Assembly: GCA_003134685.1 (NCBI GenBank)
Contig: PLCA01000002.1
Coordinates: 62,001-126,000, forward strand
Direction of reading: 5' to 3'
Source: Gemmatimonadota bacterium
GTDB lineage: Bacteria > Gemmatimonadota > Gemmatimonadetes > Gemmatimonadales > Gemmatimonadaceae
DNA length: 64,000 nt
The position numbers and the translations under genes were made by a program. The notes below the pieces were generated by a model. It did no database searches and had not been told where the DNA came from. It saw only the letters and a program-made list of their open reading frames with translations. Positions 39,599 to 56,836 of the stretch are shown one piece after another (position 1 is the stretch's first letter; the number at the start of each line of letters is the position of its first letter).

Positions 39599-40300
39599 CT
39601 AAGGCGCGGATTCGGCGAGCTCCTCGAGAATCGCAAGCTCGAGGACTCGATATTTCCCCTCGCCGACCCTTTCGATCGCCCCCAATCGTCGCAATCCCCG
39701 AAGCGCTCGGACGACGACCTCCCTGACAGTTCCAAGTTCTTCCGCGAGAGCTGTTTGTGTCATGCCGAGCGAGAACGCCGCGTTCTTTCGTGCGCCAGCC
39801 CTCGACGGGGCAGAGGTAATTGTCGTCTGGTGCCGCTGCAGAATGAACTGTGCGAGTCGCGTTTGGACGCTGTTCACGGTAATCTGATCCACTCTCTCCA
39901 CCAGGGCTTCGATTCGGTGCGAGAGACGCTTCAGAAAGAAGAATGCGAGCGCCGGGTCTATGGCGATCGCTCGTCTGACCGCGCCCTCGAGGAGAAACAG
40001 GCATCGCGTTGGTTCCGCGGCGATCGCCGTCGCGGGATAGCGGCCGCCGGTAAAGAACGGCACTTCTCCAAGGGTGGCACCGGGCTCACCGGAATGAATG
40101 ACCAGTTGGCGACCACCGCTGCCGCGAACGATGCGTACCATCCCCTCGAGCACGAGGATGATGCCTTCCGAGTGATCGCCGGCAGACCAGAGAATCTCGC
40201 CAGTCGAGAATTGTTTCTCTACCGACTGCTTCAGCAGCGCTGCCCGGCCCGCTGAACTCAGCGCCTCGAGAAGTTGGTTTCTTGCGTCGACTTGGCTCAA
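39599..40300 (-). CDS. Crp/Fnr-family transcriptional regulator
   Basis: 233 residues from TTG 40300, selected because the family length is about 230 and the domain begins there; the reading frame is open far upstream. The N-terminal cyclic-nucleotide-binding-like domain has FSTGEILWSAGDHSEGI and GEPGATLGEVPFF. The C-terminal helix-turn-helix is SLGMTQTALAEELGTVREVV. No Cys cluster for an Fe-S site and no clear cAMP residues are seen, so the ligand is unknown. Divergent from the propeller lipoprotein. Confidence 0.85.
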   Translation of the reverse strand: MSQVDARNQLLEALSSAGRAALLKQSVEKQFSTGEILWSAGDHSEGIILVLEGMVRIVRGSGGRQLVIHSGEPGATLGEVPFFTGGRYPATAIAAEPTRCLFLLEGAVRRAIAIDPALAFFFLKRLSHRIEALVERVDQITVNSVQTRLAQFILQRHQTTITSAPSRAGARKNAAFSLGMTQTALAEELGTVREVVVRALRGLRRLGAIERVGEGKYRVLELAILEELAESAP

Positions 40301-40477
40301 TGGACGAATACGGATGGAGGCGAAGGGTGAGGCCGGTGAAAGTATGCCGTTGTTTTCATTGTCGGTGGGGGACCAACTAACGGGCACTTGGGTATAGGTG
40401 GAGCGGAACAACGACGATCGATATCGCAACCCCAGGCGTTCGTGCTGAGCACTGATGTTTTTCCCAGGGTTTTTCGA

Positions 40478-41548
40478 ATGATCTTCACCCGATCGATTGC
40501 CGACCCGCGACTTCTCGTCGCATTGCTGGTCTCCCTCGCTTGTTCTGACGCTTCGTCGCCGCGTAAAGTTCCGCCACCTACCGATCTCCACGTGCTCGCG
40601 CTCGAGACCTTCGACGGCTCCGGCCAGGCCGTGCACCCCGATGCCGCCATCACCCCGCTGACATGGGCGCCGGACCAGACGCAGCTTTTTGTCACGCCGT
40701 ATCCGAATGGGGACGCGACGAAAGAGAATCCTTCGCTGTTCACGGGAAGAACCTTTGTCGACTGGCTCATTCCGCCCGGGGTCATGAATCCGATCGCGCG
40801 ACCTGCCACAGGATATCTCTCGGATCCCGATGAAGTGTTCAATCCCGAGACTAACGAGCTCTGGCTGTATTACCGCGCGGTCACGAGCGAAAATGAGATC
40901 CTGCTCATTCGAGGCAGCGGACCCTCCACCTGGAGTCCGCCGACGCTGGTTGCCAGCGGCACCAATCACACAATCGTTTCACCAACCGTGGTCAGGCGTG
41001 GGGCCGGTGACTGGTTGATGTGGTCGGTGAACAGTGGCACCGGTGGCTGCGCCGGCAACAGTACGACGGTGGAAATGCGGCGATCGAGCGATGGAATCAA
41101 TTGGTCCGATCCCGCAACGACGGATTTGTCGGAGGTCAACGCCTTCGCCTGGCACATCGACGTCGAATGGATTCCGAGCAAACAGGAATTCTGGGCTATC
41201 TACAATGTGAAGATTCCCGGATCGTGCACGACATCGGAATTGCATTTCGCGAGGAGCACCGATGGACTGCATTGGGTGCTGGCAGGCGGACCTGTACTGG
41301 TGCGCGGGGCAATACCAGCATTTGCGGACATTGTCTATCGAGCCTCGCTCTTGTATGACGAAGCCACCGACAGCATAACGCTCTGGTATTCAGGCGCTCG
41401 ATTCCAGGACGGGCGCTATGACTGGAGAATCGCAACCGAGCGGTTGACTGCATCAGCATTCTTCGAGCGACTCGCGGCGTCAGGCCTTCCTGGCGGAGGA
41501 TCGGGCGTTACAACCGCGCCTCCGCTCACCGATGCTGACGCGCCCTAA
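40478..41548 (+). CDS. Lipoprotein with glycosyl-hydrolase-type five-blade beta-propeller
   Basis: 356 residues from ATG 40478. The signal ends in the lipobox LVSLAC. The body shows propeller blades with DEVFNPETNELWLYYRAVTS, WSPPTLVASGT, MRRSSDGINWSDP and HFARSTDGLHWV. This matches five-bladed glycosidase-like folds (families 32/43/68 region), but active-site acids cannot be assigned. Likely surface exposed. It is divergent from the Crp/Fnr gene. Confidence 0.72.
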   Translation: MIFTRSIADPRLLVALLVSLACSDASSPRKVPPPTDLHVLALETFDGSGQAVHPDAAITPLTWAPDQTQLFVTPYPNGDATKENPSLFTGRTFVDWLIPPGVMNPIARPATGYLSDPDEVFNPETNELWLYYRAVTSENEILLIRGSGPSTWSPPTLVASGTNHTIVSPTVVRRGAGDWLMWSVNSGTGGCAGNSTTVEMRRSSDGINWSDPATTDLSEVNAFAWHIDVEWIPSKQEFWAIYNVKIPGSCTTSELHFARSTDGLHWVLAGGPVLVRGAIPAFADIVYRASLLYDEATDSITLWYSGARFQDGRYDWRIATERLTASAFFERLAASGLPGGGSGVTTAPPLTDADAP

Positions 41549-41686: not shown

Positions 41687-42589
41687 ATGGGCGCCAACGG
41701 ACGAACTTCGAACAAGCCGACCATCGTTCTGGTTCACGGACTCTGGCTCACGCCGAGAAGCTGGGAAGGGTGGATCGACCGCTATCAGAAGGCTGGGTAC
41801 AACGTTATCGCCCCCTCCTGGCCGGGACTCGAAGGAGAAGTCGAAGCCGTTCGCAAGGATCCGTCGCCGCTCAAGGGGCTCAAGCTCAAGACCGTCGTCG
41901 ATCACTACGACCGCATCATTCGCAAGCTCGACGCGCAGCCAATCCTGATGGGCCACTCGTTCGGCGGCCTCATCGTGCAAATGCTGGTTGACCGCGGGCT
42001 CGGTTCAGCCGGGGTTGCCGTGGATTCGGCACAGTCGGCTGCCGTACCGGTTCTGCCACTCTCGTCAGTCTGGGCAACGATCACGGTGCTTGGTAATCCG
42101 TTCACGTTCAACGCGGCCGTTGGTTTGAGCCCGGAGAAATTCAACTACGCGTTCACGAACGAGCTCGATGCCGTAGAATCAAGGAAGGTCTACGATCGGT
42201 ATCAGATCCCGGGAAGTGGTCGTATCCTCTGGGATGCGGCGCTCTCGCTCCTGAATCCGAACGCGTCGTCCAAGGTGAACTACGGCAACAATAACCGCGC
42301 GCCTCTGCTGTTCATCGCCGGCGGCAATGATCACCTCGTTCCTCCGGCCATCAACAAGGCCAACGTGCGCAAGTACATCAAGAACTCTTCCGCCGTCACG
42401 GACTACAGGGAATTCCCAAACCGCACACACCACACAGTCGGTCAGAAGGGATGGGAAGAAGTCGCGGATTTTGCGATCCAATGGGCAACCGAGCACGCGC
42501 GCGATCAGGTAACTTTGGCTGATGTCAAATCGGCGTTCGCGCCGACTACCACACAATCCGGGACCAGGAGCACCGAGATTCGCACCTGA
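41687..42589 (+). CDS. Alpha/beta hydrolase
   Basis: 300 residues from ATG 41687. VLVHGLWLTPRSWEGW is the oxyanion-hole segment, LMGHSFGGLIVQML has the nucleophile Ser in GHSFGG, FIAGGNDHLVPP the acid, and FPNRTHHTVGQKG the catalytic His region. The C-terminus is extended and polar. Substrate unknown. It precedes the redox cluster by 70 bases and could be part of it, or separate. Confidence 0.88.
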   Translation: MGANGRTSNKPTIVLVHGLWLTPRSWEGWIDRYQKAGYNVIAPSWPGLEGEVEAVRKDPSPLKGLKLKTVVDHYDRIIRKLDAQPILMGHSFGGLIVQMLVDRGLGSAGVAVDSAQSAAVPVLPLSSVWATITVLGNPFTFNAAVGLSPEKFNYAFTNELDAVESRKVYDRYQIPGSGRILWDAALSLLNPNASSKVNYGNNNRAPLLFIAGGNDHLVPPAINKANVRKYIKNSSAVTDYREFPNRTHHTVGQKGWEEVADFAIQWATEHARDQVTLADVKSAFAPTTTQSGTRSTEIRT

Positions 42590-42659: not shown

Positions 42660-44339
42660 ATGACGGCACCGATCGCAGCAACTCCCTCGAGGCCTGCGCC
42701 GAACGTCGATCAGACTTTTCCAAAGCTGACGCCGGCGCAGATCGAACGCGTTGCCGCGCATGGCCGCAGGCGCCGCATCGAGCGTGGTGAAGTGCTCGGC
42801 GCCGTGGGAAAGGTGACTCCATTGTTCTTCGTCGCCCTCACGGGAACCATCGAGGTCGTTCAGCCGGGTGGCAACGGGAAAACCACGACCGTAACGGCCA
42901 TTAGCCCTGGCGAGTTCACCGGCGAAGTTTCCATGCTCTCAGGCCGCCCCTCGCTCGTGACACTTCGCGTTGGCGAGCCGGGCGAGGTGATCGAAGTCCA
43001 GCGGGATGATCTCCTGTCGCTCATACAGGTAGACGCGGAGCTGAGCGAGATATTCGTGCGGGCGTTCCTCCTCCGCCGGGCGGGATTGGTAGCTGGGGGG
43101 TTTGGAGATGTGGTGCTGGTGGGGTCGAATCATTCCGCTGACACGATTCGGATCAAGGAGTTCCTGACCCGAAATCTCCACCCATACGTATTTATCGACC
43201 CGGATCGCGATGCCGGCGTTCAGGACCTGCTGGATCGTTTCGAGTTTGCGATCGTGGATCTCCCGGTACTCATCTGTCGTGGCAATGCCGTCCTTCGTAA
43301 CCCGACCAATCGGCAGATCGCCGATTGCCTCGGCTTCAACGAGGCGATCGATCAGGTACATGTTCGCGATGTTGTGATCATAGGCGCCGGGCCAGCCGGG
43401 CTCGCGGCCGCAGTATACGCCGCGTCGGAAGGACTCGATGTCCTCGTTGTCGAGGCGAATTCACCTGGTGGACAGGCCGGCTCCAGCTCGAGGATCGAGA
43501 ATTACCTCGGCTTTCCCTCGGGCATCTCTGGTCAGGAGCTCACGGCTCGCGCGTACACGCAGGCCCAGAAGTTCGGCGCGGAGGTAATGATTGCGGAAGG
43601 CGCGACGCGGCTCGACTGCACGCGCAAGGCGTACACGATCGAGATCGACAACGGCCCGCGCGTACCGGCAAAAACGGTCATCATCGCCACAGGTGCGGAG
43701 TATCGAAAGCTGCCCATCGACAATATCTCGCGGTTCGAAGGAGCCGGCGTGTACTACGGCGCGACGTTCATCGAGTCACAGCTGTGCGAAGGCGAAGAGG
43801 TAGTCGTAGTTGGAGGAGGCAACTCCGCTGGCCAGGCCGCGGTGTTCCTCGCGCAGACGGCGAGCAAGGTGCACGTGCTCGTCCGCTCGAGAGGTCTCGC
43901 CGAATCCATGTCGCGCTACCTGATCCGGCGTATCGAAGAGAGCCCAGCGATTGTTCTGCGGACGTGTACCGAGCTCATCGCGCTCGAGGGAAACGGACAA
44001 CTCGAGCGGGTTCAATGGCGGAAGGACAATGAGCCCGGCGAGAGTCACGACATCCGACACGTCTTCGTCATGACGGGCGCGGCGCCGAGCACCCAGTGGC
44101 TTAGCGGTTGTCTCACGTTGGACCCGCGTGGATTCATCAAGACCGGACCCGAGCTTTCGCGTGACGAGCTCAGCGCGGCGAAGTGGCCGCTTTCCCGACC
44201 GCCGCATCTTCTCGAAACGAGCCGGCCCGGGGTATTCGCTGTGGGTGACGTGAGAGCCGGCAATGTCAAACGCGTGGCTTCGGCGGTCGGAGAGGGATCG
44301 ATCGCGGTTTCCTTCGTTCATCAGGCGCTGCAGGAGTAA
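42660..44339 (+). CDS. Cyclic-nucleotide-binding/glutaredoxin-like/TrxR fusion, lacking both CxxC sites
   Basis: 559 residues from ATG 42660. Three domains: a cyclic-nucleotide-binding-like domain (about 25-140), a glutaredoxin/thioredoxin-like domain (about 150-225) and a thioredoxin-reductase-type flavoprotein (about 235-559). FAD (GAGPAG, 242-247) and NADPH (GGGNSAG, 385-391) motifs are intact. The TrxR dithiol is replaced by YYGAT (365-369), and the Trx-like domain has SNHS at 156-159 instead of CxxC, though a cis-Pro-like LPVLIC remains. So it is likely a regulated FAD/NADPH electron module that does not reduce thioredoxin by the usual route. It starts a cluster of redox genes. Confidence 0.88.
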   Translation: MTAPIAATPSRPAPNVDQTFPKLTPAQIERVAAHGRRRRIERGEVLGAVGKVTPLFFVALTGTIEVVQPGGNGKTTTVTAISPGEFTGEVSMLSGRPSLVTLRVGEPGEVIEVQRDDLLSLIQVDAELSEIFVRAFLLRRAGLVAGGFGDVVLVGSNHSADTIRIKEFLTRNLHPYVFIDPDRDAGVQDLLDRFEFAIVDLPVLICRGNAVLRNPTNRQIADCLGFNEAIDQVHVRDVVIIGAGPAGLAAAVYAASEGLDVLVVEANSPGGQAGSSSRIENYLGFPSGISGQELTARAYTQAQKFGAEVMIAEGATRLDCTRKAYTIEIDNGPRVPAKTVIIATGAEYRKLPIDNISRFEGAGVYYGATFIESQLCEGEEVVVVGGGNSAGQAAVFLAQTASKVHVLVRSRGLAESMSRYLIRRIEESPAIVLRTCTELIALEGNGQLERVQWRKDNEPGESHDIRHVFVMTGAAPSTQWLSGCLTLDPRGFIKTGPELSRDELSAAKWPLSRPPHLLETSRPGVFAVGDVRAGNVKRVASAVGEGSIAVSFVHQALQE

Positions 44340-44343
44340 TACG

Positions 44344-44964
44344 ATGCCACCGGTCTCTCGAGGCTTTCGCGGGCGGCGACAATCCACGGACACTGCAAGC
44401 CGACTCCCGCCCGGACAGTACGAGACACGAGACTTTCCGGTACTCTCGGCGGGGCCGACACCACGGACTTCACTCGCTACGTGGGATTTTACGCTTCGAG
44501 GCGCCAACGGGCAGACCGCGCGCTGGACGTGGGACGAGTTTACCGCTCTGCCGCGTCAGACAACAACGAAGGACATCCATTGCGTCACCAAGTGGTCCAA
44601 GTTCGACACGGTGTGGGAGGGAATCTCGGTTGACACACTTCTCTCGGAAGCGGCGGCAAAGGGAGTCGTGCCTTCGCCATTCGTGCTCGCCACATGCGAC
44701 GGCGGCTACACCACTAACGTTCCGCTCGCCGACGTAACTGGGGGGAAGGCCTGGGTCGCTTTCATGTACAACGGCGCTCCGCTGCCGCCGGAGCACGGAG
44801 GGCCTGCGCGCCTGCTCGTTCCGCACCTCTACTTCTGGAAGAGCGCGAAGTGGATGCGTGAGCTGCGCCTCATGGAAAGCGATGAGCCCGGGTTCTGGGA
44901 ATCGCTGGGTTATCACAACTATGGTGACCCGTGGCGCGAGCAGCGCTACGCCGGCGACGAGTGA
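44344..44964 (+). CDS. Sulfite-oxidase-like molybdopterin oxidoreductase
   Basis: 206 residues from ATG 44344, four bases after the fusion gene. The oxidoreductase molybdopterin-binding domain carries the Mo-ligating Cys80 in KDIHCVTKWSKFDT. Further conserved GGYTTNVPLADVTGGKAWVA and RLLVPHLYFWKSAKW. No Tat or other signal sequence, so it is cytosolic, unlike exported YedY/MsrP. Electrons could come from the ferredoxin-reductase-like partner, whose GTG start overlaps its stop. Substrate unknown; sulfoxide or sulfite-type oxyanions are options. Confidence 0.9.
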   Translation: MPPVSRGFRGRRQSTDTASRLPPGQYETRDFPVLSAGPTPRTSLATWDFTLRGANGQTARWTWDEFTALPRQTTTKDIHCVTKWSKFDTVWEGISVDTLLSEAAAKGVVPSPFVLATCDGGYTTNVPLADVTGGKAWVAFMYNGAPLPPEHGGPARLLVPHLYFWKSAKWMRELRLMESDEPGFWESLGYHNYGDPWREQRYAGDE

Positions 44965-45737
44965 GTTCCGGTGGCAGCGCACCACGAATTGTCTGGCGGG
45001 TCGCCACCGTGATTGACGTCGTGCTGGAGACGCCAAGGACGCGGACGCTCGTACTCGATGTGCCGGGGTGGCCCGGCCACCGCGCGGGGCAGCACGTCGA
45101 CGTACGGCTCACGGCGGAAGATGGCTATCAGGCCGAGCGGAGTTACTCCATTGCGTCACCACCGGAAGACACTCGACTCTCTCTCACTGTCGAGCAACTG
45201 AAAGACGGCGAGGTTTCACCATACTTGTCCGAAGTGCTTCACCCTGGGGATACGCTGGAGCTCCGCGGCCCGATCGGCGGATACTTCGTCTGGGACATCC
45301 CGACCGGCGGGCCGCTCTTCCTTGTTGGCGGGGGCTCGGGGATCGTGCCGCTGATGGCGATGCTGCGTCATCGCAGCGCCTCCCTTGCTACCGGTGACGC
45401 CCGACGGCGACTGCCCGCGCGGCTATTGTACTCATCGCGCCGCTGGGACGAGGTGATTTATCGGGACGAGCTAACGAGTCTGACGGAGAAGGATCCAACG
45501 CTTCAGGTAACGCATACGCTTACTCGCGAACAGCCGGATGGATGGAATGGATTCCGCCGTAGGATCGACCGCGCGATGCTGGAGCAGGTCGCATGGCCGG
45601 CGAGCGCGCAGCCGCGTGTCTTTGTGTGCGGCCCGACGCCTCTGGTTGAATCAGTTGCTTCGACGCTGGTCGACCTTGGGCACCAGCCGGCGCTCGTGAA
45701 GACGGAGCGCTTCGGTCCAACCGGCGGTGCGGTCTAG
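44961..45737 (+). CDS. Ferredoxin-reductase-like FAD/NAD(P) oxidoreductase
   Basis: 258 residues from GTG 44961, overlapping the molybdoprotein stop (GTGA). FAD-binding RSYSIASPPED and NAD(P)-binding FLVGGGSGIVPLMAMLRHR, plus the final VFVCGPTPLVESVASTL, define the FNR family. No 2Fe-2S domain is present. It probably feeds NAD(P)H electrons to the molybdoprotein or a small partner protein. Confidence 0.9.
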   Translation: MSSGGSAPRIVWRVATVIDVVLETPRTRTLVLDVPGWPGHRAGQHVDVRLTAEDGYQAERSYSIASPPEDTRLSLTVEQLKDGEVSPYLSEVLHPGDTLELRGPIGGYFVWDIPTGGPLFLVGGGSGIVPLMAMLRHRSASLATGDARRRLPARLLYSSRRWDEVIYRDELTSLTEKDPTLQVTHTLTREQPDGWNGFRRRIDRAMLEQVAWPASAQPRVFVCGPTPLVESVASTLVDLGHQPALVKTERFGPTGGAV

Positions 45738-45778
45738 CACGCCATGCAGAACTTTTATCTGCGCAAAAAGGAGTGACG

Positions 45779-46111
45779 ATGAACAGTGCTTCGAGTGAAT
45801 CGCGCGAGTCAGTTGTTGCCGGGGAGCGTCTCGGCGACACGCGCCGAGTCGACGGAAATGCCGCCGCCGGGATTCTGAGCGAAGTATTCGTTTCGGATCT
45901 GACGGCCGCGCGCGCAAAGTGCGCTGGCTGCGGAGTGACACGGGCGATTGGGACGCTGATGGTCTACGGCCACGGGATGGGAATGGTCGTGCGTTGCCCG
46001 GGATGTGATCGCGTCATGCTGCGTCTCGCGCGCACCCCGACGCACGTGTGGCTCGATTCGACCGGTGCCACGTCAATCGTTATCTCCCGTGAGGATAATC
46101 ATCATGCTTAA
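45779..46111 (+). CDS. DUF6510 zinc-ribbon protein
   Basis: 110 residues from ATG 45779 with AAAGGAG five bases upstream; GTG 45773 would overlap that site. VDGNAAAGILSEVF and two CxxC pairs (CAGC at the first, CPGC at the second) give a small zinc ribbon. DUF6510 proteins accompany sulfite-oxidase-like and ferredoxin-reductase-like genes in other bacteria as I recall. Role unknown, perhaps metal insertion or electron transfer. Confidence 0.85.
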   Translation: MNSASSESRESVVAGERLGDTRRVDGNAAAGILSEVFVSDLTAARAKCAGCGVTRAIGTLMVYGHGMGMVVRCPGCDRVMLRLARTPTHVWLDSTGATSIVISREDNHHA

Positions 46112-46373
46112 CGCGCCGTGCGCCCACATCAAAGCGATCACTACCGTCAAGCTTCCGAAGAAGCGGGAGTGCGAAGAGTGCATCAAGATCGGCGCATCAT
46201 GGGTTCATCTGAGGACCTGCCAGGAATGCGGCAAGACGCTTTGTTGCGACGACTCGCCCAACAAGCACGCTTCAAAGCACGCGCGCGCGAGTGGTCACCC
46301 GGTGATTGCCTCGGCGGAGCCTGGTGAACGATGGCTGTACTGTTATCCCGACACCGCGTTCTTTGAATACTGA
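46104..46373 (+). CDS. UBP-type zinc finger protein
   Basis: 89 residues from ATG 46104, overlapping the DUF6510 stop by 8 bases. Cys and His positions (CAH, CEEC, CQECGKTLCC, H in SKHARASGHPV) match the ubiquitin-protease zinc finger, which in eukaryotes grips the C-terminal glycines of ubiquitin. Bacterial copies often sit near TrxR-type fusions, as here. A ubiquitin-like partner is not evident in the window; the domain may recognise another C-terminal peptide. Confidence 0.9.
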   Translation: MLNAPCAHIKAITTVKLPKKRECEECIKIGASWVHLRTCQECGKTLCCDDSPNKHASKHARASGHPVIASAEPGERWLYCYPDTAFFEY

Positions 46374-46436: not shown

Positions 46437-49400
46437 TTACGCGGGCGTTTCCAGTCTCTCGCTCGGGTTGACCGCCCGCGGTATCGGGTGCTCGGCGGTG
46501 CGGCGCTTGTACACCCCGAATTTGCCGAATACCCATTCTCTCCACTCGTCGAGAATCTCGTAAAACGTCGGGATCACGACGAGCGTTAGCAGCGTCGATG
46601 TGATCACTCCGCCGATCACCGCGCGCCCGAGCGGCGCGCGGAACTCGGCGCCTTCACCAATGCCGAGCGCGACCGGAATCATGCCCGCGATCAGCGCCAG
46701 CGTCGTCATCATGATCGGACGCAGTCGAATCGCCCCCGCCTGAATCAGCGCCTCGCGCCTCGGCAGCCCGTCCTTCTCGCGCGCCCATTTGGCGAAGTCG
46801 ATGAGCAGGATCGCGTTCTTGGCGACGATGCCCATCAACAGAATCACGCCGATCAGACTCATGATGTTGATCGTCGTCCCCGTGATCATGAGCGCCAGCA
46901 TGACGCCGATGAGCGACAGCGGGAGCGAGATCATGATCGCCAGCGGCTCGAGGAACGAGCCGAACTGCATCACGAGAATCAGGTACATCAGCATCACCGC
47001 GATTCCGAGCGCCGAGAAGATGCGCCCGAACACTTCGTTCTGGCTGTCGACTTCGCCGCCTTGCGTCATGTGTACGCCGGGCGGAAAGGTGATCTTCGCG
47101 ATCCGGGCGTTGATGTCCTTCATCACTTCCGTCAGCGGACGATTGGACGTGTTCGCCTGAACGGTCACGACGAGATCCCCATTGAGATGGGTGATCTGCG
47201 CCGGCCCCAACCCCTGGGTAACTGTCGCGATTTGGCCCAGCGGCAACGTTCTCGGTTGACCATCGGGCCCAGTCACAACGAGGGGAAGCTGTTCCAGGTC
47301 CACGGCGCGCTGTCTGGATTCAGGAGCGAGGCGCACGTTTACCTCACGTGTCTCGTCGCTCGGGTCAACCCAGTCTCCGGCCTTGATTCCGGCGAATGCC
47401 GGACGGAGCGCCTGAGCCACCTGACCCACAGTGACTCCGAGCGTACCGGCCAGTCCGCGATTCAACTCGACGTTCAGCTCTGGTTTCTGACCTTTGGTCG
47501 ACAGCCCGACATCTACCGCGCCCTTTACCTGTTTTACCTGCTCGGCGATCGCTTCGGCAGTCGTCGCCAGTTGCTGCGACGTGCCACCGCGCATTTCGAT
47601 CTGAATCTGCTTCTGCGCACCCTGAAAGTCGTTGGTGAACACTGACATAGTCGCGCCACCGATGCGCCCGACTTCCAGGCGCAGCTGGCGGCCGAAATCC
47701 TCGGCACCGACGCTACGATCAGACTTGGGCACCAGTCGCACGTAGATATTCCCATTGTTCACGTCGCCGGTGCTTCCGCCGAGCGTCGTGAAGGTGAAGC
47801 GGACTTCCTTGTGCGCGCGCGCGACCCGAGCCGCCTCTTCAGCCTTGATCCTCGTGTAAGCGAGATTCGACCCCGGCGGAGTCTCGAGAGCAATGTTGAC
47901 CTCCGACTGATCCTCGGTCCCGAAGAAGCTCGCACCCACGAGCCCCACGGCTGGAAGCGCGAGCGCGATAACGAATGAGGCAATCGCAAGCAGAACCACT
48001 GCCACCCGGTGATCGAGCGCCCAGGCAATAAGCCCCTTGTAGCGCTCCGCCATGCGGTTGAACCAGTTGTTGAACTTCTCGAGCGTGCGCGCGATCGGAT
48101 TACGGTGCTCATGCGCCTCCACCTGCGGATCGGCCCAGTATGCCGACAACATCGGGTCGAGTGAGAACGACACGAACAGCGACACGAGCACCGAGGCCGC
48201 GATCGTAAGAGCGAACGGCTTGAACCACTGTCCCGCCACGCCATACATGAACGCCACCGGAACGAATACCGCGACGATCGAGAAAGTCGTGGCGGCGACG
48301 GCGAGGCCGATCTCGTCGGTGCCCTCGTGCGACGCAGTCATGTGGTCCTTACCCATCTCGATGTGGCGCACGATGTTCTCACGCACCACGATGGCATCGT
48401 CGATCAGAATTCCGATCGCGAGCGACAAACCGAGCAGCGACATGGTGTTGAGCGTAAATCCGAACGCCCACACGGCTATGAACGACGCCATCACCGACAC
48501 TGGCAGCGCCAAACCCGTGATGACGGTCGACCGCCACGAGTTGAGGAACACGAACACCACCAGCACGGTGAGAAGCGCTCCGATGAGAAGCGCCTCTTCA
48601 ACGTTGGTCACCGATGCTTTGACACGGAGACCCGAGTCTTTCACAACGTCGATCTTCGCGCCGACGGGAAGGGTCTTCTGGATCTCCGCCACCTTGGCGC
48701 GAACCTTCGCGCTCACATCGGTCGTGCTGTAGCCCTTCGCTTTAACGATGTTGATGCCGACGGCCTCATTCCCGTTGTAGAGGGCAAGCGAGCGCTGCTC
48801 CTGCGTGCCGTCGATCGCATCGGCGACCTGACCCAATCGCACGATCTGACCGTTTCGCTCGGCGACTACCAGGTTCATGAAATCCTGCGGGCCTTCGAGA
48901 CGTCCCTGCAGACGAATCGTCCGTTCGTCCAGGGTTCCGTTGAGGCGCCCAACCGGTGCGGCGAGATTCTGCGCCTCCAGCGCCTGGACGACCTGGCCGA
49001 CACTGATGCCGGCTGCCTGAAGCGATTGAGGCCTCAGCTGGATCGTCATCTCGCGCTTCACGCCACCCACTAGCTGCACCTGGGCGATGCCCGGAATTCC
49101 TCTCAGCTTGCTCGTTATGTCGGGATCAGCGAGTCGTGTGAGCTGCGCCGGAGTCAACGTCGGCGAAGCGATCGTCATCGACACGATCGGCTGGTCCGAT
49201 GGATCGAATCGTTGCAGCACTGGCTCCTTCATCTCCAGGGGAAGATCGGAGCGGATTCCGGAGATGGCATCGCGAATGTCCTGCGACCCGACCTGGGGAT
49301 CCTTCTCGAACAGAAAAAGCGTGATGATCTGAGCGTACCCATCGCCGGCAGTGCCATAGATCTTGTCGACTCCGGCGATTCCCTTGATCGCGTCCTCGAC

Positions 49401-49598
49401 CGGCTTCAGGATCTCGCGCTCGACGCCCTCCGGTGATGCACCCGGATAAGGAATGAACGTGAGCACGACCGGCTGCTGAATGTCAGGGAACTCATCGGTC
49501 TGAAGGCGCCAGAGCGCGAACAGTCCGAATACCACGAGCGCCACCATTGTGACCACGGTGATCATCGGACGCTTGATCGCAAAATCTGATATGATCAT
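46437..49598 (-). CDS. RND efflux permease (HAE1/AcrB-like)
   Basis: 1053 residues from ATG 49598, four bases after the adaptor stop. The first helix is AIKRPMITVVTMVALVVFGL. Twelve membrane helices and two large periplasmic loops are expected. TM4 has ILIDDAIVVRENI with the two Asp needed for proton transfer. Substrate is probably a drug or other organic compound; a metal-type (CzcA) role is less likely. It forms a tripartite pump with the next two upstream genes. Confidence 0.96.
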   Translation of the reverse strand: MIISDFAIKRPMITVVTMVALVVFGLFALWRLQTDEFPDIQQPVVLTFIPYPGASPEGVEREILKPVEDAIKGIAGVDKIYGTAGDGYAQIITLFLFEKDPQVGSQDIRDAISGIRSDLPLEMKEPVLQRFDPSDQPIVSMTIASPTLTPAQLTRLADPDITSKLRGIPGIAQVQLVGGVKREMTIQLRPQSLQAAGISVGQVVQALEAQNLAAPVGRLNGTLDERTIRLQGRLEGPQDFMNLVVAERNGQIVRLGQVADAIDGTQEQRSLALYNGNEAVGINIVKAKGYSTTDVSAKVRAKVAEIQKTLPVGAKIDVVKDSGLRVKASVTNVEEALLIGALLTVLVVFVFLNSWRSTVITGLALPVSVMASFIAVWAFGFTLNTMSLLGLSLAIGILIDDAIVVRENIVRHIEMGKDHMTASHEGTDEIGLAVAATTFSIVAVFVPVAFMYGVAGQWFKPFALTIAASVLVSLFVSFSLDPMLSAYWADPQVEAHEHRNPIARTLEKFNNWFNRMAERYKGLIAWALDHRVAVVLLAIASFVIALALPAVGLVGASFFGTEDQSEVNIALETPPGSNLAYTRIKAEEAARVARAHKEVRFTFTTLGGSTGDVNNGNIYVRLVPKSDRSVGAEDFGRQLRLEVGRIGGATMSVFTNDFQGAQKQIQIEMRGGTSQQLATTAEAIAEQVKQVKGAVDVGLSTKGQKPELNVELNRGLAGTLGVTVGQVAQALRPAFAGIKAGDWVDPSDETREVNVRLAPESRQRAVDLEQLPLVVTGPDGQPRTLPLGQIATVTQGLGPAQITHLNGDLVVTVQANTSNRPLTEVMKDINARIAKITFPPGVHMTQGGEVDSQNEVFGRIFSALGIAVMLMYLILVMQFGSFLEPLAIMISLPLSLIGVMLALMITGTTINIMSLIGVILLMGIVAKNAILLIDFAKWAREKDGLPRREALIQAGAIRLRPIMMTTLALIAGMIPVALGIGEGAEFRAPLGRAVIGGVITSTLLTLVVIPTFYEILDEWREWVFGKFGVYKRRTAEHPIPRAVNPSERLETPA

Positions 49599-49602
49599 AA
49601 AA

Positions 49603-50757
49603 TCAGTTCCCCCCACCGCTATTTGCTGCTGGACTTCCCGTCGGTGCCGAAATCCGAACGAGGGTTCCCGGAGTTATTCCCAGGGCCGCGCCAAGAAGAA
49701 GCGTGTCGCCCGGTTGCAGGCCTGACAACACCTCGATCGTCTCCGACGTCTTGTCCGTCAGGCCGATCTTCACCGGGACCATCTCCGCCTTTCCCTGCTT
49801 CACCCGCATCACGGATGGAATCGACCCGCGCACATCAACCGCGGACTGCGGAACCACCAGTCCCATCTTCGTCGCGGTGGACATCCGCCCGGTCGCGAAC
49901 AGCCCGCCGACGAGCGAACGACCCTCGTTTGGAATCGAGACGTAGATGCGCACCTGGCGAGTGGTCGGATCCGCGGTCGGGTTGATGCGAGTGATACGAC
50001 CCACAAATTGGCGGCCTGGATAGCCGCTGACCGTGAAATCCACCGGCACGCCGATGCGGATCGATGCGAGCTGCTCGGCCGGAACCGATGCTTCGAGTCT
50101 CATGCTCGAAGGATCAACGACCGTAAAGAGAGCGGTCCCTGGCTGCACGACATCACCTGACGACACAGGACGCTCGCTCACGACGCCCGCGAACGGCGAC
50201 GTGACAGTCGTGCTGCGGTAGGCTTTCTCGGCTGTCGCGAGTCTGGAGTTCGCATCTTCGAGGGCCGCCTGCGCCGCGATCGACGCTCGACGCGACTGAT
50301 CGATATCCCGTTCAGCGATCGCGCCGGCGGCTAGCAGCTTCTCGTTTCGAGCGAGATCTTTCGCCGCCACATCCGCCGCGTTGCGCGCGGAGACGAGGCC
50401 GGCTCGCGCCGAGGTATAAGCGTCCTGGATTCCCGACGCATCTATGCGCGCGAGCACGGTGCCGGCGTTCACGGCCTGACCCTGATCCGCGTAGGTCTGG
50501 AGAACGCTGCCGGAAACCTGCGCGCGAAGCACGGCTTCACGGTCAGGCTCGAGCGTCCCGGAAATGGATGGCCCGGTCATGATCGACCCATTGGCTGCTA
50601 TAGCGATGTTCTCGGGCCCCACCACCATCGTTTCCGCTTTCGCCATCTCGGCCGCCGAGGCGTTGTCGCCTTTGCTGCACGCGTTGAGCGCGGCGAGCAC
50701 AGAAAAGCTCAACAGAATGGCGGCGCTCTTTCTCAAAATGCTCCGATCTTGCTTCAT
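49603..50757 (-). CDS. RND periplasmic adaptor (membrane fusion) lipoprotein
   Basis: 384 residues from ATG 50757; a GTG at 50781 would overlap the TolC stop. The lipobox LAALNAC anchors it. The lipoyl-hairpin part (LRAQVSGSVLQTYADQGQAV, coiled-coil around SARAGLVSARNAADVAAKDL) and barrel domain (VTSPFAGVVSERPVSSGD) are typical AcrA/MexA. Links the inner-membrane pump and TolC. Confidence 0.95.
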   Translation of the reverse strand: MKQDRSILRKSAAILLSFSVLAALNACSKGDNASAAEMAKAETMVVGPENIAIAANGSIMTGPSISGTLEPDREAVLRAQVSGSVLQTYADQGQAVNAGTVLARIDASGIQDAYTSARAGLVSARNAADVAAKDLARNEKLLAAGAIAERDIDQSRRASIAAQAALEDANSRLATAEKAYRSTTVTSPFAGVVSERPVSSGDVVQPGTALFTVVDPSSMRLEASVPAEQLASIRIGVPVDFTVSGYPGRQFVGRITRINPTADPTTRQVRIYVSIPNEGRSLVGGLFATGRMSTATKMGLVVPQSAVDVRGSIPSVMRVKQGKAEMVPVKIGLTDKTSETIEVLSGLQPGDTLLLGAALGITPGTLVRISAPTGSPAANSGGGN

Positions 50758-50777
50758 AAATACTCTCGTCGAAATAA

Positions 50778-52448
50778 TCACTGTGGTGGAATGCCGGTCG
50801 TTTGTTGTCCCTGCGACTGCTGTTGCGCGGCCTGCGCCGGCTGACTGCTCTGCTGCGACTGCGTTTGCTGCGCTGTTGACTGGCTCTGCGCCTGCGTTGC
50901 TCCGGTGCTCTGCAGCGGAAGATCAGGAAGGAGCGCCAGCTTCACGCGCGCGACCTGCAGATTCCTCGCTGCCAGCGCGCGATTCGTGACCGCCTGCTCG
51001 AGCAGAATTCTCGAATCGTTCAGCTCGATCTGCGTCGAGATCCCCTCCTTGTAACGAACCTCGGCGATCGAGTACGCACGCGCTGCCTGCGCCGCCGTGC
51101 CCTGACTTGCAAGCCACGCCGCACGAGCCTGGAGAAGATTGTTGATCGTCACCCTGGAGTCGAGCGCGGCGAACTCGCGGACCTGATCGTAGCGGGCCTG
51201 CGCTTCACGCACGTTGGCTTCCGCTACCAGCTGATCGCCCTTGATCCGGCCCCCGGTGAAGAGCGGGACCTGCGACCCCAGAGCAATCGTCCAGTTTGTC
51301 CGGAAATCTCCCGACCCTGGAAGTCCACTTAGCGGAAACGCGACTTTCCCATATTGCGACGTCAGGGCAAGCGTGGGAAATCTCTGCGCCTTCGCGACCT
51401 TGAGAAGTCCCCGCTGGGCATCGATCGCGTCGGCCGCCTGTCTGACCGTTGCTCGATCGATGGCCGCCGTATCGCTGGTGATTCCCATGCTCTCGAGAGC
51501 GGTATTTACCGCGGCGGAATCATCGACAACGGTCGTCAGCTCCACCGGGGAATCGAGCGGAATATTCAGGAGCTGCTTGAGCCTCAGGTACGCTACTTCG
51601 CGATCGCTCTGACGCTGGATAACGATGGGCAACTGATTGGCGCTCGAAACCTGGGCGCGCAACAGCTCGAACTCGGAAACATTGCCGACCGCGCGGGCCA
51701 GCCTGGTCTGCTTCAGAACATTGTCGGTCTGAACGGAAGACGACTCGGCGAGCGCGACCAGCCTGTCGGCGAGCGCGGCATCGAAGTACGACTGCGTCAC
51801 GTCGAGACGGAGTTGCGCGCGCTGCGCGGTCAGCTCGATGTCGGCCGAGCGACGCCCCGCATTCGCGACCGCATTCTGCGCCGAAATGCGTCCGCCCGCG
51901 AACAGGCTCTGCGAGAAAGCGAGGCCGAGACTGTACTGGTTCTTCGCGCCGAATCCGAGACTACCGAACGACGAGAACGGGTTTCCGCTGAGGGCGCAGC
52001 GATTTGCGTTCTCGAGTCCCGCCAGCCGGTCGGCCGTGGTAGCCGTCGCGTCGAGGAGATACTGGTCGCACGGAGCCGGGGGCGGCACGGGCTTCGTCGT
52101 ATCTGGTGCCGGCCCGGCGACGACGGAGAACTGCGACGCCAGGGTGCGGGTGTAGCTGGCCGATCCCAGGAGCTGCGGCAGCCTCTGGCTCCGCGCCTGA
52201 TACTGCTGGCCTTGGGCGCGCTGGACTCCGGCGCGCGCGATACGGACCGCCTCGCTCTGGGATTCAGCGATGCGAACGGCTTCGTCCAGCGAGAGCGTGC
52301 GACGTTCCCCGGTCGTATGGACCGTTGGTAAGCTGGGAGTCACCTGTGCTGGTGCGATCGCCGGGATCAGCAAAGCTGCTGCGGCGAGGGACACCCTCAG
52401 AATTCTGCCGAGCCTGAGGGCGCGGAGTTGGGCTTTGTTGGAAGACAC
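50778..52448 (-). CDS. TolC-family outer-membrane channel
   Basis: 556 residues from GTG 52448, three bases after tetR. Signal peptide LRVSLAAAALLIPAIAPAQ. Two helical repeats with long coiled coils (SLDEAVRIAESQSEAVRIAR, YDQVREFAALDSRVTINNLL). The last 45 residues are a Gln/Ser/Ala-rich tail (TAQQTQSQQSSQPAQAAQQQ), probably disordered in the periplasm. It forms the outer channel of the pump. Confidence 0.94.
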   Translation of the reverse strand: MSSNKAQLRALRLGRILRVSLAAAALLIPAIAPAQVTPSLPTVHTTGERRTLSLDEAVRIAESQSEAVRIARAGVQRAQGQQYQARSQRLPQLLGSASYTRTLASQFSVVAGPAPDTTKPVPPPAPCDQYLLDATATTADRLAGLENANRCALSGNPFSSFGSLGFGAKNQYSLGLAFSQSLFAGGRISAQNAVANAGRRSADIELTAQRAQLRLDVTQSYFDAALADRLVALAESSSVQTDNVLKQTRLARAVGNVSEFELLRAQVSSANQLPIVIQRQSDREVAYLRLKQLLNIPLDSPVELTTVVDDSAAVNTALESMGITSDTAAIDRATVRQAADAIDAQRGLLKVAKAQRFPTLALTSQYGKVAFPLSGLPGSGDFRTNWTIALGSQVPLFTGGRIKGDQLVAEANVREAQARYDQVREFAALDSRVTINNLLQARAAWLASQGTAAQAARAYSIAEVRYKEGISTQIELNDSRILLEQAVTNRALAARNLQVARVKLALLPDLPLQSTGATQAQSQSTAQQTQSQQSSQPAQAAQQQSQGQQTTGIPPQ

Positions 52449-52451
52449 TTT

Positions 52452-53078
52452 TCAGTTTGAAAGTTGTTTCGATCGTTTGGTCTGCTTATTCGTCGCCTTG
52501 CGCGAGCCGTTTTCGACACCCAGAGCGCGAAGCAGCACCCGGGTGTACATGTGCGCCGCCTTCTCCTTGGGTTGCGGAAAGTTCTCGGGCATCATCTCAC
52601 GTCCCATCGCGTCGGAGAAGATCGCCCCCATGAGCATTGCGGCGGCCGTCTTCGGCTCGAACCTTTCAGTGATTCTTCCCTGCCGCTCGAGCGCGGCGAG
52701 GTAGTGGCACAGATCGTTCGAAGCCCGTCTCGGGACGTCGGTGGCGCACTCGCCCATTTCCGGTCTCTCTTCGATCTCACCCATCGTCTTACGGATGATC
52801 GAGCTATGAAGTCTCAAATGTTGCATGAACGACTCGCTCCACACCGTCAGCTCCCGTTCCGGGTCGGACGGGATATCGGGCAGCGTGGCGAGGCCGGCGG
52901 ACTGCGTCAGGTGTTGCATTGCGGCGCGGATCAGCGCTTCCTTTGACCCGAACTGGCGGAAGATCGTGATCTCGTTTACGCCCGCGGCATCCGCGATGCG
53001 ACGGGTGGTAGAGCCGCGGAAACCATGCTGCGCGAAGACTCCGGCAGCGGCGGCGAGGATTGCGTCTCGGTGATTCAT
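52452..53078 (-). CDS. TetR-family regulator of the efflux operon
   Basis: 208 residues from ATG 53078. The N-terminal helix-turn-helix is GVFAQHGFRGSTTRRIADAA and NEITIFRQFGSKEALI. The C-terminus is basic (RKATNKQTKRSKQLSN). As the first gene of the operon it probably represses itself and the pump genes until a drug binds. A candidate operator lies 36 bases upstream. Confidence 0.93.
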   Translation of the reverse strand: MNHRDAILAAAAGVFAQHGFRGSTTRRIADAAGVNEITIFRQFGSKEALIRAAMQHLTQSAGLATLPDIPSDPERELTVWSESFMQHLRLHSSIIRKTMGEIEERPEMGECATDVPRRASNDLCHYLAALERQGRITERFEPKTAAAMLMGAIFSDAMGREMMPENFPQPKEKAAHMYTRVLLRALGVENGSRKATNKQTKRSKQLSN

Positions 53079-53916: not shown

Positions 53917-55464
53917 ATGTTTTTATCACGCTCGATTGCGTGCGCCCTTCGTTTGGCTGCCGTTTTATCACTGCTGATTGCCACAAAGCCTCTGGCCGCA
54001 CAGGGTGCGGCGCGCGATACCGTGCACAAAAAGGACACGGTGCCAATGCCCAAGAACATGCCCATGGGCAAGGAGACCCAGAAGAAAAAACCCGGGACTG
54101 ATGCTAGGCCGGGAATGCCCGGGATGGAGACACCGACCGTGCGAGCGGACTCGACACCGAAGCCAATGCCGGGTATGGACGCCGACGACATGATGATTGG
54201 ACCGGCTGGGGTCAGCATGGAGAGGATGGGATCCGGAACCACGTGGACTCCCGACGCCGTTACGATCCCTTCGCGGCGCAGAATGCTGGGAAGCTGGATG
54301 ATAATGACGCACGGATTCGTCTTCGTGCAGTACGACAAACAGAGTGGCGAGCGCGGCGATGATCAGTTCGGATCGTTGAATTGGGGAATGCTGATGGCAA
54401 CACACGACCTTGCCGGTGGCCGCTTCCAGGCGCGAACGATGCTCAGCCTCGATCCGCTGACGGTCAGTAACCGAGGGTATCCGCTGCTGTTACAAAGCGG
54501 AGAGACCTACAGGGGCAAGCCATTGTTCGATCGCCAGCACCCCCACGACTTCCTAATGGAAGTCGCCGCTCTGTATCAACACGACATCACCAAGCGATTA
54601 GCGTGGAGCATTTATGTGGCGCCGTCTGGAGAGCCGGCGCTTGGCCCCGTTGCATTCATGCACAGGCCGTCAGCGATGGACAACCCCACTGCTCCGCTCG
54701 GCCACCATTGGCAGGACGCCACGCACGTAAGCTTTGGCGTGGTGACTGGAGGTATCTACTCACGCAAATGGCAGCTGGAATCCTCGTGGTTCAACAGCCG
54801 CGATCCCGATGAGGATCGCTGGGATATCGACCCTATAAAGCTGGATTCCTATTCTGGAAGGCTCACCCTGAACCCGGACGCCCACTGGAGCATTGAGGGA
54901 GGCTACGGCTTTCTGAAAAGCCACGACGCATTGGCCCCCGAAGAATCACTGCACAGGAGGACCGCATCGATCCTTCATGGAGCTCCGCTGGGTGTTGATG
55001 GACAATGGGCCAGCTCCTTTGTGTGGGGTTCGAACAAACACAACACCGAGACACGTTGGACCAATGCGTTTCTGCTGGAGAGCGAGGCGATTCTCGACCG
55101 GCACAACACATTGTTCGGACGAGCCGAGGTCGTGAAAAAAGGCGCCGACGATCTTGTTGTCGACGGCCCCGTCGTCACGAAGGATGGAACTGTGCTGCCG
55201 GGGTTCCCCCCACTCCAGAAATTCAACGTCGGTGCGGTGGAGCTAGGCTACGTAAGGGAATTGGCAAGAACGCATTGGGCAACTGTTGGACTCGGAGCGG
55301 CCGGAACCCTCAATTTCGTCCCCGCGTCCCTCGAGCCATACTACGGTTCGAGACATCCAGTCGGTACTTTCATCTTTCTGAGAGTCCGGCCTTTTCATTC
55401 ACGTAAACCCGCCGTGCACAAGGACGAGATGAGTGGAATGCAAATGAAGCGAGATCGTGAGTAG
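53917..55464 (+). CDS. Outer-membrane porin-like protein with Met-rich N-terminus
   Basis: 515 residues from ATG 53917, preceded by GGAAAG. Signal peptide (LRLAAVLSLLIATKPLAAQ), then a Met/Lys/Pro-rich linker (MPKNMPMGKETQKKKPGTD and GMDADDMMIGP) suited to copper. The rest is a beta-barrel pattern (FQARTMLSLDPLTVSNRGYP, RQHPHDFLMEVAALYQHD) ending in GTFIFLRVRPFH and a Met-rich tail. Likely an outer-membrane channel for a metal; the class often lies next to copper genes. Overlaps the copCD start by 8 bases. Confidence 0.78.
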   Translation: MFLSRSIACALRLAAVLSLLIATKPLAAQGAARDTVHKKDTVPMPKNMPMGKETQKKKPGTDARPGMPGMETPTVRADSTPKPMPGMDADDMMIGPAGVSMERMGSGTTWTPDAVTIPSRRRMLGSWMIMTHGFVFVQYDKQSGERGDDQFGSLNWGMLMATHDLAGGRFQARTMLSLDPLTVSNRGYPLLLQSGETYRGKPLFDRQHPHDFLMEVAALYQHDITKRLAWSIYVAPSGEPALGPVAFMHRPSAMDNPTAPLGHHWQDATHVSFGVVTGGIYSRKWQLESSWFNSRDPDEDRWDIDPIKLDSYSGRLTLNPDAHWSIEGGYGFLKSHDALAPEESLHRRTASILHGAPLGVDGQWASSFVWGSNKHNTETRWTNAFLLESEAILDRHNTLFGRAEVVKKGADDLVVDGPVVTKDGTVLPGFPPLQKFNVGAVELGYVRELARTHWATVGLGAAGTLNFVPASLEPYYGSRHPVGTFIFLRVRPFHSRKPAVHKDEMSGMQMKRDRE

Positions 55465-56836
55465 GGGGGTTCGCCTCGCTGTCGCGCTTGTCCTTGTGCT
55501 GTGCCCCGTTCGGGCATGGGCGCATGCTCTCCTCAAGCGTAGTGATCCTGCAGCCGGTTCCACAATAGCGGCCTCGCCGCAATTGATCCACCTGTGGTTT
55601 TCGGAGCAACCGGAGCTGCGGATGACCTCCGTTTTGCTCACGGACGCGAGTGGGCGGGCGTTCGCGTTGGGTACACCGGCGGCCGAACAGGGCACACCAC
55701 TCGGGGTTTCCCTTCGGGTATCTGAATCTCTTCCGCCCGGACGGTATATCGTTTCGTGGAGAACCGCCGCATCAGACGGACATCCATCGCGTGGAAGCTT
55801 CAGTTTTATCGTTGCGCCTGAAGCGTCTGTATCAGTGCATCGGCCGCCGCCGCAGGCTGGCACAGTCGCCACCGTGTCCCCCAACGGCGTGGCGTCATCG
55901 ATGGAAGAGATGGACGAGGGAACAGCTGAGGCTTCTTCTTCGGTGTCCAACTCCCTGGCCCGTGCATTTTCGTTTGTTGGTCTTCTGGTCCTCATCGGCG
56001 CAACGACATTCAGAACCCTGGTTCTCCCGCGAGCTCGTGGGACAAACCCGGACCTGGCTGTACGCATGGAACGCCGCACAGCAGTCCTCGGGCTGACAGC
56101 GAGCGCTCTCGTCATCCTTACCGCGTTTGCCAGAATTGGTCTCGAGTCGGAAATGATGGCCGGAGTCGCCGGCATGAAGACGATGAGCATGACGGACATG
56201 ACGTTACATACTCGGTGGGGATTCGCGCTCCAGCTGGAGCTTGGAGCGGCGCTCGTAGCGCTCGTCTCCTTCGCCCTCGCCATAGGCCGACTTCGCGGCG
56301 CCTGGACGGTGGCGAGCATTTCGGCGATCTTGCTCGCGGTGACGCCGGCACTGGCCGGACACGCCGCGGCGAGCCCGAGATTTACATCATTGCTGATTGC
56401 CAGCGATTTCCTTCACGTGCTGGGCGGAGCCAGCTGGCTTGGGAGCCTCCTCTGCGTGATGCTGATCGGCGTGCCGATATCGCTCACACTCATGGGAGCG
56501 GAGCGATGGCAATCCGTAGCCGCGCTCGTAAATGCATTCTCTCCCGTTGCCCTGTTTTCCGCGGCCATCGTTGTCGTCAGCGGCGTCATCGCGTCGTGGG
56601 TGCATGTTCAGCATCTCACTGGCCTTTGGCAGACCTCGTATGGGCGGGTTCTGCTCGTGAAACTCGCTCTGGTTACGCTCACCCTGATGACAGGAGCTTA
56701 CAACTTCCGCAGAGTGCAGCCCCTGTTGGTCAGAGAGGAGGGAACGGCCCGACTTCGGCGATCAGCAGTACTCGAGCTGGGCCTCGGCTTTCTGATCCTT
56801 GTCGTCACCGGATTCCTGACGGGAGTTTCACCCTGA
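55457..56836 (+). CDS. Copper resistance protein, CopC-CopD fusion
   Basis: 459 residues from GTG 55457. After a signal peptide the mature start is HALLKRSDPAAGS, the copper-binding His of CopC, with a second ligand region in SDGHPSRGSF. The CopD part (about 170-455) has eight hydrophobic helices, including ASPRFTSLLIASDFLHVLGG, and ends in ILVVTGFLTGVSP. CopC binds copper in the periplasm and CopD carries it across the inner membrane. The fusion is common in diderms. Confidence 0.93.
   Translation: MSRGVRLAVALVLVLCPVRAWAHALLKRSDPAAGSTIAASPQLIHLWFSEQPELRMTSVLLTDASGRAFALGTPAAEQGTPLGVSLRVSESLPPGRYIVSWRTAASDGHPSRGSFSFIVAPEASVSVHRPPPQAGTVATVSPNGVASSMEEMDEGTAEASSSVSNSLARAFSFVGLLVLIGATTFRTLVLPRARGTNPDLAVRMERRTAVLGLTASALVILTAFARIGLESEMMAGVAGMKTMSMTDMTLHTRWGFALQLELGAALVALVSFALAIGRLRGAWTVASISAILLAVTPALAGHAAASPRFTSLLIASDFLHVLGGASWLGSLLCVMLIGVPISLTLMGAERWQSVAALVNAFSPVALFSAAIVVVSGVIASWVHVQHLTGLWQTSYGRVLLVKLALVTLTLMTGAYNFRRVQPLLVREEGTARLRRSAVLELGLGFLILVVTGFLTGVSP

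Follow-up and report, generated by a model that had tools for sequence, protein, structure and literature searches.

The known enzymes of MsrP type act outside the cytoplasm and draw their electrons from the membrane, and the UBP zinc fingers of eukaryotes read a C-terminal Gly-Gly through an arginine of their pocket. Here we describe a gene cluster of a Gemmatimonadota bacterium (family Gemmatimonadaceae; GenBank assembly GCA_003134685.1, contig PLCA01000002.1, positions 62,001–126,000; this whole stretch of 64,000 nt is called the window) that contains relatives of both. One part of it, module A, is a flavoprotein of the thioredoxin reductase (TrxR) family without the TrxR or glutaredoxin dithiol, fused to a domain of the cyclic-nucleotide-binding (cNMP) fold (the fusion, FUS) and accompanied by a cognate UBP finger. 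The other, module B, is a soluble minimal molybdoprotein (MOL) of the sulfite oxidase (SUOX)/MsrP fold with a constantly adjacent FNR-type reductase free of iron-sulfur (Fe-S) clusters and an optional DUF6510 protein. The cluster thus physically unites two redox modules that are separate in most genomes. They are joined more often than chance predicts in other lineages too, which suggests a shared role in the repair of oxidative damage.

Module B: a molybdoprotein and its reductase

MOL was followed by FNR in all 31 Gemmatimonadaceae genomes whose contig extends far enough, and DUF6510 was present after the pair in at least 14 of them. At each of the 20 DUF6510 loci retrieved from Actinobacteria the order MOL-FNR-DUF6510 was found, as it was in Anaerolineales, Dormibacteraeota and one Streptomyces plasmid. 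An earlier prediction made from the window sequence alone (the original prediction) had stated that these genes co-occur, and MOL and FNR, often with DUF6510, indeed made up one module in Gemmatimonadaceae and at the Actinobacterial loci. In the closest relative (G365, MOL 97% identical to that of the window), DUF6510 was a remnant left by an internal deletion between intact neighbours. Since DUF6510 was not found in over half of the MOL-FNR operons and was deleted in this relative, the constant partner of MOL is FNR, with DUF6510 as an accessory. The proposal that DUF6510 is a needed part was thus not upheld, and a role as obligatory electron carrier was rejected on the same grounds.

The Mo-ligating Cys80 of MOL (DIHCVTKW), noticed in the original prediction, was invariant in nine relatives from four phyla. 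An AlphaFold2 model of MOL (pLDDT 76) matched SUOX/MsrP structures in Foldseek with E values of 1e-10 to 1e-9 (7e-10 against 1xdq, 2.5 Å over 169 columns), and it predicts an MsrP-type fold, i.e. a SUOX fold with the Mo-ligand Cys and without the dimerisation domain. MsrP (NF003767) was the best NCBIfam match of MOL, at 37 bits far under the 207-bit cut-off. No hydrophobic export signal was seen by eye at the MOL N-terminus, and the periplasmic export and MsrQ partner that characterise MsrP were lacking; the adjoining partner is the FNR flavoprotein. A second molybdoprotein subfamily, about 50% identical to MOL, was almost the only one returned by a MOL search of Anaerolineae.

FNR consisted of FAD_binding_6 and NAD_binding_1 domains and no Fer2 domain was found, in agreement with its predicted lack of Fe-S. 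Its closest PDB structure was NADH-cytochrome b5 reductase (2eix, E=2e-18). Together these features would fit a direct transfer of electrons from FAD to Mo. DUF6510 scored 109 bits against PF20120 (cut-off 26.4). Its model, of moderate confidence (pLDDT 69), gave no significant Foldseek match, no rubredoxin-type match among those listed, and a ribosomal zinc-ribbon protein was matched only weakly (Z 4.4, 2.3 Å over 52 residues). DUF6510 and the UBP finger are predicted to be zinc proteins from their CxxC/His motifs. A literature search on DUF6510 found no paper.

Genomic company of the MOL-FNR pair

MOL-FNR had msrA and/or msrB for a neighbour in eight or more separate contexts, some of them on resistance plasmids. 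The pair stood with msrB-msrA-GST-CorA-ADH-grxC on plasmids of Enterobacter and Acinetobacter, with msrA-msrB on one of Sinorhizobium fredii, with OsmC-peroxiredoxins-msrB-msrA on one of Mesorhizobium and with msrA/msrB/TlpA/grxC on one of Comamonas aquatica. On a plasmid of Streptomyces NBC_01707, msrA lay directly 5′ of the pair and a catalase gene was also present. At genome loci, msrA was next to MOL-FNR in G047 (gene order DsbA-like, MOL, FNR, MsrA), Streptomyces F001 and G468. From this company, NAD(P)H-driven repair of methionine sulfoxide or related oxides would be the most economical reading of module B.

The plasmid pair (WP_003464980.1 and WP_002118292.1; loci L171, L172 and L179, i.e. 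NZ_CP033797, NZ_CP070867 and NZ_CP150797) was carried widely by plasmids, both conjugative and mobilizable, in Enterobacterales, Acinetobacter and Pseudomonas, frequently as part of an msrB-msrA-GST-corA-ADH-grxC cassette. No study of the role of this pair was found in the literature, and a plasmid cassette msrB-msrA-yfcG-corA figured in the literature found as resistance-island cargo only (PMC9602987).

Module A: a dithiol-less TrxR fusion

By Pfam the fusion had intact domains for FAD and NAD(P)H, as predicted. The CATC site of TrxR was replaced by GATF (G367-A-T-F370), and this dithiol was missing from 43 of 43 aligned members of the fusion family, so its loss holds throughout the family and is no peculiarity of the window's protein. 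The fusion scored 210 bits against the thioredoxin-disulfide reductase profile TIGR01292 (cut-off 343 bits), and the CxxC dithiol that this enzyme carries in its NADPH domain was absent. The description "Cys-less" was correct in that there is no CxxC, but loose, as six cysteines are scattered over the protein. A glutaredoxin domain (PF00462) was detected in 7 of 11 family members, and the top PDB matches of the corresponding region were glutaredoxins (E=0.01).

The cNMP-fold domain scored 47.6 bits against PF00027 (cut-off 27.5). The phosphate-binding Arg, nine residues past a conserved Glu, was replaced by Ser98, which on alignment to MlotiK1 fell on the Arg of the PRSATV motif, the residue that binds cAMP. 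None of 41 scored family members had Arg at this site (43 were aligned and two of them not scored automatically; a few misses of the motif finder were read from the alignment instead). Cyclic-nucleotide gating in its usual form, as the original prediction had it, was rejected because the canonical Arg is absent.

In two Actinobacterial genomes (L162 and L165), an equivalent set comprised a TrxR fused to a response regulator, a histidine kinase with a cNMP fold (typed in L162 only) and a UBP finger, which suggests that the output of the flavoprotein may be under signalling control. A literature search found no paper on UBP with TrxR and cNMP, nor on a fused response regulator/TrxR. In genus g11 (G306 and G308; L124 and L125), the same chromosomal site, ~10 kb from MOL-FNR, carried fusions of two clades, 64% and 44% identical to that of the window, as if replaced in place.

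The UBP finger

The UBP finger of the window scored 43.4 bits against PF02148 (cut-off 22.7), and it matched PDB structure 2IDA (E=8e-28). It was 72–77% identical to UBP fingers adjoining fusions elsewhere and ~48% identical to the general type. The same subtype was found at the fusion loci of nine genomes (G110, G232, G035, G075, G145, G013, G282, G361 and G079), so the expectation that UBP fingers accompany TrxR-type fusions proved correct. The CGR motif of HDAC6 aligned with CCD of the window finger, the Arg of the Gly-Gly pocket being replaced by Asp; reading of a ubiquitin-like Gly-Gly in the manner of USP5/HDAC6 was therefore rejected, and the zinc-finger specificity factor of the original prediction was not supported. 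In three Actinobacterial genomes (L213:6316-8718, L214:4946-6880 and L216:4481-6364), a Na+/H+ exchanger carried a UBP finger as its C-terminal domain.

Recurrence of the joined arrangement

The union was present in six genomes of genus g1, namely the window genome (G000), G365, G372, G364, G291 and G366; in the last, a separate Na+/H+ exchanger gene (L098:2135-3727) lay inside the cluster between the fusion and MOL. In Gemmatirosa kalamazoonensis (G079, also Gemmatimonadaceae), the two modules were divergent and 100 nt apart. In two Actinobacterial lineages, a UBP gene lay within 6.2 and 3.8 kb of module B on the same strand (G442/G457) or ~0.4 kb downstream of it (G384). The modules were joined in 7 of 17 Gemmatimonadaceae genomes holding both and at 3 of 22 Actinobacterial DUF6510 loci (20 were fetched, and two of G377 were judged from coordinates).

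By a simple Poisson estimate with random placement, which ignores operon structure, 0.008 joinings within 2 kb were expected by chance in Gemmatimonadaceae at genus level and two were seen; in Actinobacteria, 0.085 placements within 6.5 kb were expected and three were seen (two lineages, P about 0.003). The ~50%-identical molybdoprotein subfamily served as negative control: in the 24 genomes holding both it and the fusion, the two were never adjacent. In trees, FUS and MOL of Gemmatirosa fell outside the g1 clades, and the trees require at least two gains of the union, or one gain and several losses (they held duplicate rows for three genomes with two loci each, one of these rows, that of Gemmatirosa, being mislabelled as apart, with the result unchanged). 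The modules were mostly separate, yet joined above chance in several lineages.

Third genes were shared as neighbours: a DsbA-like gene and c15 were each found next to fusion/UBP in one set of genomes and next to MOL-FNR in another. c15 encodes ~105 aa with no Pfam family over cut-off, and lay by UBP/fusion loci in ~11 Gemmatimonadota genomes and by MOL loci in two more (loci include L091, L094, L139, L082 and L118).

Gene order and surroundings of the cluster

Gene calls confirmed five genes in one direction over 42660–46373 with the families named in the original prediction, which had overlooked a sixth, an alpha/beta hydrolase (ABH) gene at the head of the cluster (Table 1). The fusion and MOL genes were 4 nt apart, MOL and FNR overlapped by 4 nt (GTGA), FNR and DUF6510 were separated by 41 nt, and DUF6510 and zf-UBP overlapped by 8 nt. 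The order was nested, FUS-[MOL-FNR-DUF6510]-UBP. ABH also stood first in the cluster of all g1 relatives with a contig reaching that far; ABH-FUS-MOL was conserved in L105, L106, L107 and L108, and ABH-MOL in L076. Promoter and terminator scans gave nothing exceeding shuffled sequences.

Table 1. Features of the cluster and its surroundings (window coordinates)
Feature	Position (strand)	Family or match	Remarks
Crp-family regulator	39599..40969 (-)	cNMP-fold + HTH_Crp_2	Upstream of cluster
Alpha/beta hydrolase (ABH)	41687..42589 (+)	PF12697	First cluster gene, 70 nt 5′ of fusion
TrxR-like flavoprotein fusion (FUS)	42660..44339 (+)		559 aa; cNMP-fold + glutaredoxin-like + TrxR domains
FUS cNMP-binding-fold domain	42771..43028 (+)	PF00027	Residues 38–123
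FUS glutaredoxin-like domain	43098..43337 (+)	PF00462 in relatives, PDB matches	Residues 147–226; without CxxC
FUS TrxR domain	43368..44297 (+)	PF07992	FAD + NAD(P)H subdomains
Molybdoprotein (MOL)	44344..44964 (+)	PF00174 (Oxidored_molyb), E=4e-34	206 aa; sulfite-oxidase/MsrP fold, no dimerisation domain
FNR-type NAD(P)H reductase	44961..45737 (+)	PF00970 + PF00175	GTG start; FAD + NAD domains, no 2Fe-2S domain
DUF6510	45779..46111 (+)	PF20120, E=1e-31	Small CxxC-x(n)-CxxC protein
zf-UBP	46104..46373 (+)	PF02148, E=4e-11	89 aa; subtype paired with cNMP-TrxR fusions
RND efflux set	46437..53078 (-)		Pump, HlyD-type adaptor, OEP channel, TetR regulator
CopC-CopD protein	55457..56836 (+)		Beyond RND set

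The Crp-family gene on the opposite strand may encode a regulator of the cluster. The RND efflux set is convergent with the cluster, and the pump gene was retained downstream in relatives L075, L095, L098, L105 and L107.

Proposed function and alternatives

With moderate confidence, we propose that the cluster combines an MsrP-like oxide reductase of the cytosol, driven by NAD(P)H, with a signal-controlled flavoprotein, two modules co-recruited into one oxidative-stress response. Electrons of NAD(P)H would pass through the FAD of FNR directly to the Mo centre, which would reduce an oxidised cytosolic substrate; a sulfoxide, for example methionine sulfoxide, is the most likely one. Module A would act in parallel as a signal-controlled NAD(P)H flavoprotein, its N-terminal domain probably sensing something other than cAMP or cGMP and its UBP partner serving as a docking or regulatory subunit in a putative complex. 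Joining would place repair and signalling in one response to oxidative or electrophile stress, with no direct flow of electrons from module A to the molybdoenzyme implied.

Several observations weigh against this proposal. The identity of MOL to MsrP was ~21% in a structural alignment, and no stress genes were found around module B in Phyllobacterium and Streptomyces NBC_01136. The modules were apart in 10 of the 17 Gemmatimonadaceae genomes with both, at 19 of the 22 Actinobacterial loci, at the other named loci and on all non-Gemmatirosa plasmids examined. In G136, module B was kept beside the hydrolase, the fusion was on another contig and had lost its C-terminal FAD segment, and the sole UBP was of the general type, which argues against obligate coupling. 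In a Gordonia transcriptome, a "sulfite oxidase-like oxidoreductase" gene was higher on organosulfur substrates and was assigned to sulfur metabolism (PMC7661421).

These separations, the relatedness of the g1 genomes and the loss of the union in G136 would also be expected if module B had been inserted once between the fusion and UBP genes of a g1 ancestor and then inherited with no functional link. The nested gene order fits such an insertion, as does the g11 fusion, which lies 10 kb off, on the opposite strand and surrounded by unrelated genes. We consider this coincidence rather unlikely: Gemmatirosa and Actinobacteria each have an arrangement of their own (P by chance of about 0.003 or lower in each phylum), the modules have third neighbours in common, and in g1 the union has persisted with short junctions during a divergence of the fusion to 66% identity. 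A further, tentative and somewhat improbable version of the repair proposal is that MOL and FNR form a cytosolic MsrP-type system spread by resistance plasmids beside msrA/msrB, which in some lineages came under or beside the fusion/UBP switch to make one sense-and-repair unit.

It is doubtful that module B is instead a sulfite-oxidase-like enzyme linked to NAD(P)+ that handles sulfite or takes part in sulfur assimilation, with Msr genes as incidental neighbours. The Gordonia expression data keep this explanation alive, and the SUOX superfamily fold of MOL and the YeeE/YedE transporters adjoining MOL-FNR in Sinorhizobium are in its favour; MOL, however, has no SUOX dimerisation domain, is nearest MsrP in size, and has msrA/msrB for neighbours in the contexts listed above. 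Least probable is the one linear pathway of the original prediction, in which a cyclic-nucleotide-regulated fusion, FNR and zinc proteins feed the molybdoenzyme: the tight co-directional overlaps and the recurring union speak for it, but no scored member of the fusion family has the canonical cNMP Arg, the nearest relative has lost DUF6510, MOL is invariably accompanied by an FNR of its own and in most genomes by no adjoining fusion, and G136 retains module B with the fusion elsewhere and truncated. What stood of that prediction was the modules and the recurrence of their union; its cyclic nucleotide, its need for DUF6510 and its single path did not.

If the repair proposal is true, the soluble, two-gene, NAD(P)H-fed version of MsrP would be a portable repair enzyme, already carried on plasmids beside msrA/msrB. 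The union also offers the first testable context for DUF6510 and for two widespread families without an assigned role, the dithiol-less regulated TrxR fusions and the bacterial UBP fingers.

Comparison with known systems

Like the TrxR-like ferredoxin/flavodoxin-NADP reductases, the fusion has the TrxR fold with domains for FAD and NAD(P)H and lacks a catalytic dithiol; it differs from them by its additional cNMP-fold and glutaredoxin-like N-terminal domains and its cognate UBP finger. That finger resembles the bacterial UBP of 2IDA and of the exchanger fusions in being a single UBP finger; the general bacterial type occurs fused to Na+/H+ exchangers, whereas the window finger is a distinct subtype paired with the cNMP-TrxR fusion.

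Module B resembles eukaryotic assimilatory nitrate reductase and sulfite oxidase in that a SUOX-fold Mo domain is served by an FNR of cytochrome-b5-reductase type, but here the genes are separate and there is neither cytochrome b5 nor a dimerisation domain. By description it is also like DR_0716 of Deinococcus (COG2041), a predicted cytoplasmic Mo protein of the SUOX family discussed in a review as a possible methionine sulfoxide reductase (PMC8945050); DR_0716 may be a member of the second molybdoprotein subfamily, that of ~50% identity. With the periplasmic methionine sulfoxide reductase MsrPQ (YedYZ), MOL-FNR has in common the SUOX fold, the single Mo-ligand Cys, the core without a dimerisation domain and the genomic company of MsrA/MsrB. 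It differs in its size (206 aa against about 300 in MsrP), in its distant sequence with no export signal seen, and in the soluble NAD(P)H-linked FNR that takes the place of the membrane haem protein MsrQ.

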